In this document: positions 53,245-58,973 of the stretch, in pieces
Layout: each line of letters opens with the position of its first letter
Position numbering within the stretch: the stretch's first letter is position 1
Origin: Microbacterium fluvii
GTDB lineage: Bacteria > Actinomycetota > Actinomycetes > Actinomycetales > Microbacteriaceae
Length of the DNA: 64,000 nucleotides
Assembly (NCBI RefSeq): GCF_025515205.1
Contig: NZ_JAOPFX010000001.1
Span: forward strand, 1,612,001-1,676,000
Reading direction: 5' to 3'
The notes under the pieces: generated by a model
The model's database searches: none
Seen by the model: only the letters and a program-made list of their open reading frames with translations
Told to the model about the DNA's origin: nothing
Made by a program: the position numbers and the translations under genes

Positions 53245-54593
53245 GACTGCCACCCGCTCTTCCAGTCCTCGTCCTGGGCGAGCGTGATCGCCTCCCCGGC
53301 CAGCACGACCGAGCCGGCGATCACGACGGCACGGCCCTCGTGCCCCGCCGCCCACTCGCGCGCAGCCTCGGCCGCGTCGTCGAGCCCGGGGTGCACCGTC
53401 ACCGGCAGCCCCGCGGCCTCGGCGAGATCGGCGACGGCCTCGGCATCGCTCGCCCGATCCGAGGCGGGCGAGGTCGCGAAGACATGCGTCGCGACGGGGG
53501 CGAGCGCCGCGACGATGCCGGCGGCATCCTTGTCGGAGAGCACGCCCAGCACGACGCCCCACTCCTCGAAGGCGAACGATTCGCGCAGCGCCGAGGCCAG
53601 TGCACGCGCGCCGTGCGGGTTGTGCGCGGCGTCGACGAGCACGGTGGGCTCGACGCCGACCAGCTGGAGGCGGCCGGGCGACGTGGTCTCGGCGAGGCCT
53701 TCGGCCAGCACTCCCTCGTCGATCGGCTGCGACGCGCCGCCCACGAGCGACTCGACGGCGGCGATCGCCAGCGCCGCGTTCATGCCCTGGTGGGCGCCGT
53801 ACATCGGCAGGTACAGCTCGGGGTAGTCGCTCGCGAGGCCCCGCACCGAGATCTGCTGACCGCCGACGGCGAGCCGGCCCTCGCGCAGGGCGAAGTCGGC
53901 GCCCTCGAAGGCGATCGTCGCGCCGGCGGCGGCGGCGGCCGCGCGCAGCACGCGTTCGGCATCCGGATGCTGGCGCGCCGACACGGCGGCGGCGCCCGGC
54001 TTGATGATCCCCGCCTTGACCTCGGCGATCGCCTCGATCGTGTCGCCGAGCCGGTCGGCGTGGTCGATGTCGATCGGTGCGAACACCGCGACGTCGCCGT
54101 CGGCGGTGTTCGTCGAATCCCACGCGCCGCCCATGCCGACCTCGATCACGGCGACGTCGACCGGAGCGTCCGAGAAGACGACGAAGGCGAGCACCGTGAG
54201 CAGCTCGAAGAAGGTCAGCGGCGGCTCGCCGGATGCGGCGAGCTCGTCGTCGACGATCGCGACGAACGGCGCGATCTCGTCCCATGCGTCGGCCACGGCC
54301 GCGTCGGCGACCGGCTCGCCGTCGACCATGATGCGCTCGGTGTAGCGCTCGAGATGCGGACTCGTGAACAGTCCGGTGCGCAGCCCGTGGGCCCGCAGCA
54401 CGCTCTCGACGATGCGACTGGTCGAGGTCTTGCCGTTCGTGCCGGTCACGTGCACGACGCGGTAGGTGCGCTGCGGGTCGTCGAGGTACTCCAGCACGCG
54501 GCGGGTGCGCTCGATGCGCGGCTCGACCCAGCGCTCGCCCTGGCGCTGCAGCAGCTGCTCGTAGACGGCGTCGGCCCTGCGGCGGTCGTTCAT
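53241..54593 (-). CDS. folC: Folylpolyglutamate / dihydrofolate synthase
   Basis: A 450-residue Mur-ligase-type enzyme with the P-loop [12 protein letters not shown] near residue 48, [24 protein letters not shown] and the C-terminal [13 protein letters not shown]. It adds glutamate to folates. ATG 54593 overlaps the ileS stop (ATGA), so ileS, folC, DUF4233 and ndk form one coupled operon. Confidence 0.94.
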
Positions 54594-57500
54594 GCCGTCA
54601 CCTCCGATCGGCTCACGGCGACGGCGAATGCGCCGCGGTTGGCGTAGGTGCCGGCGGTCACGAGACCGACGTATTCCGGCGCGAACCCGGGCGAGGGCGG
54701 CCAGGCGGCTGCCGCCGCCTCGGCGGTGCCCTCGACATCGGCGCCCGCCTGCAGCAGGACGAGGTCGACGGCGAGCGTCTCACCGGCGACGTCGGCCGCG
54801 CTCTGCCCCAGCCCGACCGCGACCGCGTCGGCCGCGTCGTCGAAGACGAGGCGCAGGCGGATACGGTCGCTGACCTCGAAGCCTGCGGCCTTGCGGGTGT
54901 CCTGCACGGCGCGGATCACGTCGCGCGCGAGGCCCTCGGCCTCGAGCTCGTCGGTCGTCGTGGTGTCCAGCAGCACGAAGCCGCCGTCCTTGAGCAGCGC
55001 GATCGCGGTGCCCTCCGCGACCCCGCCGGCCTCGAGGGTGAGGTCGTACTCCCCCGGCTCCAGGGCGACGCCGTCGACGACGACGCCTTCGGCGGTCGCC
55101 TCCCACAGCCCTGCGCGAGCGCCGGCGATCACGTGCTGGACCTGCTTGCCCAGCCGCGGACCCGCCGCGCGGGCGTTGACGCTCAGGCGCTGCGAGATGC
55201 CGTAGCGGTCGGCCACCTCGTCGCTCAGCTCGACCAGCTCGACCGCCTTGACGTTGAGCTCGTCGCGCACGATGCCGTCGAACTGCGCCAGGGCGGCAGC
55301 ATCCGTCACCGCGACGGTGAGCTTCGGAAGGGGCAGGCGCACGCGCTTGCCCTGCTTCTTGCGCAGCGCGTTGGCGACGCTCGAGACCTCGCGCACGGCG
55401 TCCATCGCGTCGCGGATGTCGGCAGCGGGGGCGAAGGCGTCGGCATCCGGCCAGTCCTGCAGGTGCACACTGCGCCCGCCGGTGAGCCCCTGCCATACCC
55501 GCTCCGCCACGAGCGGCAGCAGCGGCGCGGCGACCCTCGTGAGGGTCTCGAGCACCGTGTAGAGGGTGTCGAAGGCCTCGGTGGATGCGGGGGCGTCGGT
55601 CACTCCGACCCAGAACCGGTCGCGCGATCGACGGATGTACCAGTTGGTCAGCACCTCGACGAAGTCGCGCAGCTTGGCCGCCGCCGTCGTGGAGTCGAGG
55701 GCCTCGAGGTCTTCGGCGACGCCGCGCACGAGGTCGCCGGTGAGGGCGAGGATGTGGCGGTCGAGCACATCGGTCGAGTCGGTGCGCCAGCGTGCCTGAT
55801 ATCCGCTGCCTTCGGGGCCGCCGGCGGCAGATCCCGCTGAGCCTGTCGAAGCGGACCCCGCTGAGCCTGTCGAAGCGGACCCCGCTGAGCCTGTCGAAGC
55901 GGACCCCGCTGAGCCTGTCGAAGCGGACCCCGCTGAGCCTGTCGAAGCGTTCGCGTACGTCGCGAAGAAGTACCAGGCGTTCCACAGCGGCAGCATGAAC
56001 TCGCGGACCCCCGCGCGGATGCCCTCTTCGGTGACGATGAGGTTGCCGCCGCGGAGCACGGAGCTGGCCATGAGGAACCACCGCATGGCGTCGGAGCCGT
56101 CGCGGTCGAACACCTCGGAGACGTCGGGGTAGTTCCGAAGCGACTTCGACATCTTCTGTCCGTCGCTGCCCAGCACGATGCCGTGGCAGGCGACGCCGGT
56201 GAAGGCGGGGCGGTCGAACAGCGCGCCCGAGAGCACGTGCATGACGTAGAACCAGCCGCGGGTCTGCCCGATGTACTCGACGATGAAGTCGGCCGGGGCG
56301 TGCGAGTCGAACCACTCGCGGTTCTCGAACGGGTAGTGCACCTGCGCATAGGGCATCGAGCCCGAGTCGAACCATACGTCGAAGACGTCTTCGATGCGCC
56401 GCATCGTGCTCCGGCCGGTGGGGTCGTCGGGGTTCGGGCGGGTGAGATCGTCGATGTAGGGGCGGTGCAGGTCGACCTCGCCCTGCTCGTTGCGGGGCAG
56501 CCGGCCGAAGTCGCGCTCGAGCTCTTCGAGCGAGCCGTACACGTCGACCCGCGGGTGCTCGGGGTCGTCGCTGCGCCACACCGGGATGGGCGAGCCCCAG
56601 TAGCGGTTGCGGCTGATCGACCAGTCGCGCGCGCCCTCGAGCCACTTGCCGAACTGGCCGTGCTTGACGTTCTCGGGTGCCCACGTAATCTGCTCGTTGA
56701 GCTCGACCAGGCGGTCCTTGATCTGCGTCACGCGCACGAACCAGCTCGAGACGGCCTTGTAGATGAGGGGGTTGCGGCACCGCCAGCAGTGCGGATACGA
56801 GTGCTCGTAGCTCGCCTCGCGCACAAGACGCCCGTTCGCCTTCAGCAGGCGGATGAGCGGCCGGTTGGCGTCCATCCACAGCTCGCCGGCCACATCGGTC
56901 ACCTGCGGGAGGAACCTGCCGCCGTCATCGAGCGAGAGGATCGTCGGCATGCCGGCGGCCTCGGCGACCCGCTGGTCGTCTTCACCGTAGGCGGGCGCCT
57001 GGTGCACGATGCCGGTGCCGTCGGCGGTCGTCACGTAGTCGTCGACGAGGATGCGCCACGACGTGCCGGTGCCCCACGTCTCGGCGTCGGCGTAGTAGTC
57101 GAACAGGCGGTCGTACGACACGTCCGCAAGGTCGGCGCCGAGCACCGTCGCGGTCACGGCGTCGCGCGCAGCATCCGCCGATTCGTAGCCGAGGTCCTTC
57201 GCATAGCCGCCGAGCAGGTCTTCTGCCAGCAGGTAGCTGTGCGAGGTCGCCTCGAGCGGGTCGTCGCCGGCGTGCACATCGGCAGCGCCCAGCGGGCCGC
57301 CCGGCACCACGACGTAGCGGATGCCGGGGCCCACGGCCAGGGCGAGGTTGGTCGGCAGCGTCCACGGCGTCGTCGTCCACGCCAGCGCGCGGACGCCGGT
57401 CAGGCCCAGCGCCTCGGCCTTGACGCCGACGAGCGGGAACGACACGGTCACCGACGGATCCTGCCGCATCTTGTAGACGTCGTCGTCCATGCGCAGCTCG

Positions 57501-58111
57501 TGGTTCGACAGGGGCGTCTCGTCTCGCCAGCAGTAGGGCAGCACGCGGTAGCCCTGGTAGGCGAGGTCTTTGTCGTAGAGCTGCTTGAACGCCCACAGCA
57601 CCGACTCCATGAACCCGGTGTCGAGCGTCTTGTAGCCCCGATCGAAGTCGACCCAGCGCGCCTGGCGGGTGACGTAGTCCTGCCACTGCTGCGTGTATTC
57701 GAGCACCGACTCGCGCGCCTTGCTGTTGAAGGTGCCGATGCCCATCTGCTCGATCTCGCTCTTCTCGGTGATGCCGAGCTGCTTCATCGCCTCGAGCTCC
57801 GCCGGAAGACCGTGCGTGTCCCACCCGAACACGCGGTCGACCTTGTGGCCGCGCATCGTCTGGAACCGCGGGAAGAGGTCTTTGGCATAGCCGGTGAGCA
57901 GGTGCCCGTAGTGCGGCAGGCCGTTGGCGAAGGGCGGGCCGTCGTAGAAGACCCACTCGTCGGCGCCCTCGCGCTGCGAGATGGAGGCGCGGAAGGTGTC
58001 GTCGCGCTCCCAGTACTCGAGGATCTCGCGCTCGACGTCGGGGAACCGAGGACTCGGGACGAGCGGCTCGCCGGTCCCTGAGGGTGTCGAAGGGTCGAGA
58101 GGATAGGTCAT
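54590..58111 (-). CDS. ileS: Isoleucyl-tRNA synthetase
   Basis: A 1173-residue class I synthetase of the long, eukaryote-like IleS type. It has the HIGH-equivalent [13 protein letters not shown] near residue 66, the editing domain, KMSKS in [12 protein letters not shown] near 655, then the anticodon-binding domain. Between the catalytic and anticodon domains (about residues 720-760) is a five-fold in-frame repeat of Ser-Ala-Gly-Thr residues. ATG 58111 is chosen at the end of the T-box leader; the longer reading translates riboswitch sequence. Confidence 0.95.
55833..55952. repeat. Five-copy 24-bp tandem repeat inside ileS
   Basis: The unit GACCCCGCTGAGCCTGTCG plus AAGCG (24 bp) repeats five times, the later copies being identical; the first copy starts GATCCC. 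It encodes ASTGSAGS units in frame. The core CTGAGCCTGTCGAAG resembles an interspersed intergenic repeat known from several actinobacterial genomes. A related sequence (CCCTGAGGGTGTCGAAGGG) occurs near the 5' end of the same gene at about 58076-58094. Confidence 0.95.
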
Positions 58112-58312
58112 TGTCACTCCGGCAGGTTGCGATGCTTCCTGCGAGGACGATCGTGCGACCGCGGTACCACCCCGCTTGCGGACTCCAGACCTTCTGATCC
58201 GTGGTCGCGCCACTCGTGCTGCGGCTGTGACGGGCCTGCCCCGCTCGGTTCTACTGGGCGGCGGACCGCTGTTCTTCCGAGAGCTCCCCGGTGATGGCCG
58301 GATCGATGCTTT
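58112..58312 (-). promoter_or_regulatory. T-box riboswitch of ileS, ultrashort Stem I type
   Basis: On the minus strand, after the predicted start near 58312, a short hairpin CCGG-CCATCA-CCGG carries the Ile specifier ATC (58295-58293) in its loop, followed by GGGAGCTCTCGGAAGAAC. Near 58158-58173 is the T-box GGGTGGTACCGCGG. A specifier in a terminal loop is the ultrashort Stem I arrangement described for actinobacterial ileS, which acts on translation. Uncharged tRNA-Ile should expose the ribosome site. Confidence 0.88.
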
Positions 58313-58324: not shown

Positions 58325-58460
58325 CCCGGCCGCGGAGTACTACGACCATCGGGCAATGGTGCTCGTCCGCGCGGCCTCGAAGACTGGTGGGCGATGAGAG
58401 ATGCCTCATACAGCCCATGCGGTTGCATGCGGCACGACACAATCGACGAAGGACGATGAC

Positions 58461-58973
58461 ATGAAGCGACTGATTCTCGGAAGCACCGCCGCCCTCACCA
58501 TCGCGGCGGTACCCGCCGTGTTCGGACTGTGGGGCAACGCCTCGTTCTCCCAGGAGGTGCCCGTCGTGGTGCCGGCGTCCGCAAAGATCGTGGAGGCGCC
58601 GGCATCCACTCCCACGGCCACGCCGACGGCCACGCCGACGGCGACCCCCACAGCGACGCCGACGGCCACGCCGACTCCGAAGCCGGACAAGACGAAACAG
58701 GACCACGTCAAGGGCGACCCTGCCGCGGTGAAGCCCGACAAGACCAAGAGCGACGACGAGCGCACGAAGAACGACAGGGAGTGCGACGACCGCGACGCGA
58801 AGAACGACGGGTCTCGCGACACGAAGTCGGAGCGCGACGACAGGAGTTCGAGCGATCAGCAGGCCAAGGGCGACCGCAGCGGGAAGAGCGGCGGTCATGG
58901 CGACAAGCGCGGCGGCGACCACGGCGGTGATCGCGGCGGCAAGGGCGGCGGCGACCGCGGAGGGCGCGGCTGA
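58461..58973 (+). CDS. Small secreted low-complexity hydrophilic protein
   Basis: A 170-residue protein: a signal peptide (MKRLILGSTAALTIAAVPAV), a PTAT repeat of about six units (residues 50-75, coded by a 12-bp repeat at about 58609-58680), a Lys/Asp/Arg-rich middle and a Gly/Asp/Arg-rich end (GGDHGGDRGG). No hydrophobic core, so it is probably disordered outside the cell. Its stop abuts the histidine kinase GTG with no gap. Similar small secreted hydrophilic proteins next to sensor kinases occur in actinobacteria. Confidence 0.82.
   Translation: MKRLILGSTAALTIAAVPAVFGLWGNASFSQEVPVVVPASAKIVEAPASTPTATPTATPTATPTATPTATPTPKPDKTKQDHVKGDPAAVKPDKTKSDDERTKNDRECDDRDAKNDGSRDTKSERDDRSSSDQQAKGDRSGKSGGHGDKRGGDHGGDRGGKGGGDRGGRG

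Follow-up and report, generated by a model that had tools for sequence, protein, structure and literature searches.

Cyanobacterial small dispersed repeats are very short mobile hairpins. The Rickettsia palindromic elements (RPEs), 100-150 bp long and described from Rickettsia and Wolbachia, reside inside open reading frames without breaking them, fall in solvent-exposed areas of the encoded proteins, including the phenylalanyl-tRNA synthetase beta subunit, and occupy the same places in orthologues (PMC3767692). The GTAG- and CGTC-tagged REPs are small palindromes of uneven copy number that occur singly, paired or clustered; some lie within genes, including those of tRNA synthetases, and the CGTC REPs, whose loops measure 4-5 nt, have no known transposase (PMC3733652). 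The REPIN/RAYT system comprises interspersed hairpins and doublets (PMC3116915), and a REP survey published in 2025 shows three Actinomycetota species (PMC12306157). The main text of PMC3733652 mentions neither Actinobacteria nor Microbacterium, and that of PMC12306157 contains neither Microbacterium nor parts of the motif described here.

The repeat that we describe from the isoleucyl-tRNA synthetase gene (ileS) of Microbacterium fluvii resembles the RPEs, as portrayed in that article, in being a palindromic repeat placed in frame in protein genes, including one for a tRNA synthetase. It differs from them in its size (a core of 15 bp and a hairpin of about 19-27 bp), its occurrence in Actinomycetota, its scattered distribution on the species tree and its in-frame tandem units. 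An RPE-like placement, in frame in conserved genes whose orthologues lack the repeat, was observed in the ileS loop of 19 of 167 distinct IleS sequences and in 9 of 11 proteins compared for a second genome. With the GTAG/CGTC REPs, as PMC3733652 presents them, it shares small palindromes, uneven copy number, the occurrence of singles, pairs and clusters, and some intragenic copies, but the GTAG tag is absent, CGTC-like words are sporadic and the unpaired centre is longer than the 4-5 nt of the CGTC REPs. Interspersed hairpins and doublets also recall the REPIN/RAYT system of PMC3116915, whereas a Y1 transposase was detected in only one of 198 genomes of the genus. The core strings returned no description of the repeat from the full-text literature (one unrelated match), and no description of such repeats in Microbacterium or Microbacteriaceae was found at the level of titles and abstract starts. 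Intragenic REPs and RPEs are already established; hence the Microbacterium repeat is a new form of a known phenomenon.

The DNA analysed, a stretch of 64,000 nucleotides referred to as the window, contains the features collected in Table 1. The earlier note had placed five in-frame 24-bp units between the catalytic and anticodon-binding domains of ileS, and Tandem Repeats Finder, the core positions and Pfam all bear this out. Tandem Repeats Finder reported 55833-55949 with a period of 24, 4.9 copies, 100% matches and a score of 234, the runner-up among its 36 rows scoring 91. The exact core CTGAGCCTGTCGAAG starts at 55837, 55861, 55885, 55909 and 55933, and at two or fewer mismatches the window holds six matches against 0.23 expected, a number reached by none of 100 shuffles. 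The array encodes STGSAGSA five times over (ASTGSAGS is the other register), and its last unit on the coding strand diverges at its end. The open reading frame scores 781 bits against NCBIfam TIGR00392 (cut-off 621), and its true start is likely at 58111 (MTYPLD...), where it matches relatives. According to Pfam, the catalytic domain ends at residue 721 and the anticodon-binding domain begins at residue 818, with the array between them. Among the best 80 of 574 relatives from a protein search, the segment joining the two domains spans 35-47 aa in 78, the two exceptions having 57 and 59 aa; in the window it measures 81 aa, which equals the common 41-aa form plus exactly five times eight residues (40 aa). 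This segment falls in a stretch omitted from the two displayed alignments to solved IleRS structures, and the AlphaFold2 model of the protein is poor (mean pLDDT 46.2).

Table 1 Features of the ileS region in the window
Feature	Coordinates	Strand	Basis
ileS isoleucyl-tRNA synthetase ORF	54590..58213	-	1207 aa from the listed GTG; NCBIfam and Pfam matches
Array of five 24-bp units, STGSAGSA x5	55833..55952	-	TRF, core positions, 40-aa addition relative to relatives
Exact 15-bp core CTTCGACAGGCTCAG (coding strand), five copies	55837..55947	-	Core search of the window
Candidate decayed core near the IleS N-terminus	58078..58092	-	Two mismatches, flanks GACC..GGGACC

The sixth match codes an 11-residue peptide near the N-terminus of IleS. 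It is a probable decayed copy of the core: its flanks resemble those of the repeat, and the ileS genes of other species also carry copies near the equivalent place, although its two mismatches leave a chance match possible. Adjoining ileS, a small open reading frame (58401-58973), whose product looks secreted, contains 12- and 18-bp tandem repeats at 58606-58680 that encode a TPTATPTATP stretch.

The core CTTCGACAGGCTCAG has 22 exact copies in its own genome, 17 of them outside ileS, and the reversed core used as a control has none; the whole-genome search that the earlier note had set as a test thus refutes an absence of copies elsewhere. The note's description of an intergenic interspersed repeat holds as regards interspersion, while copies lie in genes as well as between them. 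Eleven of the 17 non-ileS copies are CCCTTCGACAGGCTCAGGGACC-like, with CC before and GGACC after the core, and short tandem runs of 18 bp occur at five places. A Pfam search of ten open reading frames over eight non-ileS places found a family for five; repeat-bearing frames include an Lhr-type helicase, an FAD-linked oxidase and a flavin monooxygenase, and in those of a PepX-type peptidase and an MnhB-type protein the copy lies at the extreme end.

The repeat is a hairpin with covarying arms. We compared 124 distinct copies (at most one core mismatch) from 20 fetched stretches of six other Microbacterium genomes, in which the two variable positions adjacent to the core are paired in 119 and 117 copies, whereas shuffles gave means of 60 and 62 and none of 2000 was as high. 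At the third stem position pairing is not in excess (53/124, shuffles 50), and the fourth and fifth positions are nearly invariant. In the own genome the first arm position is paired in 19 of 23 copies (12.5 expected by shuffles) and the second also in 19 of 23 (17.4 by shuffles, not significant). The repeat has the form nnCTGAGCYTGTCGAAGn'n', often lengthened to GGTnn...n'n'ACC; 49 of the 53 places matching GGTnnYTGAGC-4-CGAARnnACC have fully paired arms. Common forms carry GGTGG/CCACC or GGTCC/GGACC arms flanking CTGAGCYTGTCGAAG and stand singly, in inverted pairs or in arrays. One genome (G063; L138, L139, L134) contains big hairpin arrays with GGTGG and GGTCC arms and up to 15 cores per cluster. 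A search of 83 kb of repeat-rich DNA yielded nothing above the Rfam thresholds.

Across the genus, the exact core was found in 106 of 198 genomes including its own, at 0-379 copies each, with at least ten copies in 52; the reversed core matched once in each of three genomes. When one position was relaxed to A or G, the family search detected the repeat in 42 of 150 genomes, which belong to 31 of 85 genera, with a maximum of 583 copies, single-copy genomes being near background because the reversed control gives single matches in a few genomes. The same search at the level of the phylum identified 11 of 149 genomes, including the own genome, the other ten holding one or two copies each. The hairpin form also occurs in three viral contigs, two of which have about 40% G+C and other paired arms (GGTTAC/GTAACC and GGTTGC/GCAACC), and sphingomonad plasmids gave short, weak matches to 40- and 66-base queries (best E-value 0.01). 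These matches suggest that the repeat probably extends beyond Actinomycetota.

To compare the same loop in relatives, we assembled 191 ileS sequences (the window's own, 80 and 110), of which one (L230) yielded no loop and the remaining 190 represent 167 distinct IleS. A WYFFxTY DNA pattern for ileS matched in 184 of the 198 genus genomes; the sample comprises 30 loci returned by the pattern and 80 fetched stretches, omits several high-copy genomes (e.g. G019, G070, G084) and is enriched for carriers, since 61 fetched stretches came from copy-bearing and 19 from copy-free genomes. The core was present in the loop of 12 distinct IleS exactly, of 17 at one or fewer mismatches and of 19 at two or fewer, the sites of L058 and L198 being weaker two-mismatch matches. 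Its position varies among carriers, following ANA in some and GGP in others, and the copy of L183 is reversed. Neither unit number nor sequence is kept across species in this alignment, the other check that the earlier note had set.

On an IleS tree (FastTree, 167 sequences, 1087 columns, poorly filled columns dropped), the 19 carriers require at least 17 changes, 16 of them forced by starred branches; shuffled carriers required a mean of 18.3, and 70 of 500 shuffles were as low as 17. The tree counts changes, some of which may be losses, and gains are the simpler reading because single carriers stand among empty relatives, positions differ and one copy is reversed. Such repeats have most likely entered the ileS loop many times, with about 16 apparent arrivals. 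The identical loop peptide of L203 and L231 is one case in point for caution, as some loops may be common to species by recombination. The IleS nearest to that of the window is 86% identical over the kept columns, and we infer from the comparison that the window's own ancestral loop was free of the repeat.

Unit number also varies between relatives. The close species L087 and L208 have three and two 24-bp units in the loop, respectively, and form a well-supported clade with L120, whose loop is empty. Two in-frame 24-bp units are present in each of L179 and L242, four irregular units occur in a CP1-like stretch of L204, and the loop of L111 contains a 24-bp duplication of unrelated sequence.

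Cores at two or fewer mismatches were also observed at three other places in ileS: near the N-terminus in 14 species (some copies possibly ahead of the start codon), in what its position marks as the CP1 editing insertion in six, and in the loop after RDRFW in four. Altogether, ileS contains 46 cores in 26 species at one or fewer mismatches, with none for the reversed control, and 56 in 31 species at two or fewer, with 12 for the control, 11 of which are one conserved ileS stretch. Two hundred letter shuffles of the core gave a mean of 0.155 one-mismatch matches in ileS, yet one shuffle alone gave 26. The two-mismatch sites (L058, L198, several at the N-terminus and the window's own at 58078) are weaker because controls also match at that stringency. 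A contig filed as Stenotrophomonas maltophilia (L065, JACEFY010000162.1) contains a Microbacterium-type ileS at 78% identity, and the public genome behind it is probably contaminated.

Setting a genome with 67 copies (G078) against G099, its neighbour on the tree with seven copies, revealed gains in other genes. The flanks of 15 of 16 copies were located in G099 at 78-96% identity, and the core at two or fewer mismatches was absent from all 15 orthologous G099 loci (46.8 kb) and from 13 of 13 in G004 (40.6 kb). The empty loci indicate that G078 most likely acquired the compared copies. Nine of the 11 proteins compared with G099 acquired residues in frame, L270 and L271 being dropped for want of a convincing frame: HemB (+6 aa), SerS (+3), PntA (+7), a xylulokinase-like kinase (+6, LRQAQG), a PepO-type peptidase (+7, PEPVEG), an Lhr-type helicase and three further proteins, some of these names resting on partial open reading frames that score below the full-length cut-off. 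The inserts use several reading frames. The Lhr-type helicase frames of G078 (L273) and of the own genome (L001) both bear the repeat, and this gene is possibly a second recurrent landing place.

A second hairpin repeat has reached the same ileS loop. L180, L187 and L224 have ERAERDET-type peptides there, derived from a partly decayed GGTCGnTGAGCGAGCGnAGCGAGACGAAACG-like repeat, and the genomes of these species contain 114, 132 and 26 copies of it. Its core GAGCGnAGCGAGACGAAA was found in 99 of 198 genus genomes, the own genome containing 37 exact copies, and its distribution is unlike that of the first repeat. Among 49 copies, arm positions one and two are paired in 43 and 46 against 32 and 36, exceeding all shuffles; the third position, paired in 39 against 34, hardly departs from them, the highest shuffle giving as many. 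The ends YTGAGC...CGAAR look like those of the first repeat, a likeness to be read with the fact that the search pattern already contained TGAGC and CGAA. We tentatively propose, at a confidence somewhat short of even, that the CTGAGCYTGTCGAAG and TGAGCGAGCGnAGCGAGwCGAA repeats would represent two families within a single superfamily of tiny hairpins, with ends nnYTGAGC...CGAARn'n' and a variable tip. Non-Y1 machinery would spread this superfamily in Actinomycetota and in other phyla, and in essential enzymes it would recurrently generate in-frame peptide inserts at the same tolerant loops.

For the window itself, a short mobile hairpin repeat that entered the ileS loop and was amplified in frame is the highly probable origin of the array. 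Many Microbacteriaceae genomes contain scattered copies of this repeat, and one copy would have entered the loop that connects the catalytic domain to the anticodon-binding domain, where the enzyme tolerates the flexible peptide of Ser, Thr, Gly and Ala that the copy adds. The repeat together with adjacent bases would then have served as a 24-bp block for in-frame duplication, giving five units; replication slippage or unequal recombination would be the simplest mechanism. An activity that recognises structure may move the repeat, selection against damaging insertions may leave copies concentrated in the ileS loop, and the inserted peptide may have no function of its own. The earlier note had likewise envisaged entry at a tolerant loop followed by in-frame amplification; the comparisons between species suggest both steps, with the amendment that entry most likely happened many times and not once.

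A mobile hairpin recognised by its structure is most likely, and spread driven by uptake or repair is its main rival, which we consider unlikely. Under this alternative, biased uptake, template switching or repair would disperse the motif without a transposase, in keeping with the lack of any known transposase, the small size of some gains (SerS, +3 aa) and the use of several reading frames. By eye, no target-site duplication was noticed in 15 filled/empty alignments of G078 copies (L267 failed to align), and the bases adjoining copies often differ between filled and empty sites. Because no target-site duplication was seen and adjoining bases differ at several copies, 'insertion' may instead be templated replacement. 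The conserved pairing of variable arms and the tandem arrays, however, are unexpected for a fixed uptake motif.

It is improbable that the inserted peptide is itself selected, for example in tuning the domain movement of the enzyme. In its favour, use of the loop far exceeds an even spread: 2372 copies in 110 genomes would be expected to give 0.04 loop matches, whereas 17 genomes have them. Loop carriers are richer in genomic copies (17 genomes, median 40, versus 93 non-carriers; p = 1.5e-7), counts that include the carriers' own ileS copies. We take the excess to reflect survival of insertions at a permissive site and do not regard it as proof of target preference. Against selection, the ERAERDET-type peptide of the second repeat lies in the same loop, most relatives have no insert, and three further places in ileS have been struck.

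A classic REP or REPIN moved by a RAYT (an IS200/IS605-type Y1 tyrosine transposase) has, in our judgement, a slightly smaller chance still. Interspersed hairpins, inverted pairs, BIME-like arrays and the absence of visible target-site duplications all agree with this explanation. A search for PF01797 in 198 genus genomes, however, was positive only in G041 (L133, G041:C15:20980-21342, an IS200-type transposase), a genome that has no exact copy, and among 14 control genomes the same search was positive in 5, E. coli being one of them; mobilisation as a REPIN, which calls for a repeat-flanked Y1 gene, finds no support here. The tetranucleotide tag speaks against membership in the GTAG/CGTC superfamily, whose self-complementary stem is present (119/124 and 117/124 paired): GTAG occurred in neither 10-base flank of any of 147 distinct copies, and other words, counted anywhere in these flanks, were sporadic (GTGG 20, CGTC 12, TGTC 14 and CCTC 4). 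In the first 60 places of G184 (1.32 Mb, GC skew weak), single copies also lie in both orientations, 21 plus and 20 minus, the replication strand there not being established. All five two-copy inverted pairs are plus-then-minus.

A single ancient ileS insertion, inherited and then lost repeatedly, is very improbable. It would account for the shared loop and the often shared reading frame (STGS), and changes on the tree can be losses, but the minimum of 17 changes with 16 forced, the predominance of single carriers among empty relatives, the varying position and orientation within the loop and the other ileS places struck all stand against it. An ordinary minisatellite, produced by slippage of native ileS sequence and resembling genomic repeats by accident, has a precedent in the unrelated duplication of L111 but is the least credible account given the 17 further copies of the 15-bp core (control 0), the identical CC...GGACC flanks of 11 of them and the single copies in the loop of other species.

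Taken as the product of a mobile hairpin, the ileS loop constitutes a replicated natural experiment, in which one essential gene and one loop have seen about 16 apparent arrivals and both empty and filled relatives are available. The system opens three questions to study: by what means a hairpin of 20 bp that lacks any known transposase moves, how protein structure filters insertions and how a landed repeat becomes a coding minisatellite. Peptides such as PSTGSGT, PEPVEG, LRQAQG and ERAERDET in actinobacterial proteins may be derived from such repeats.
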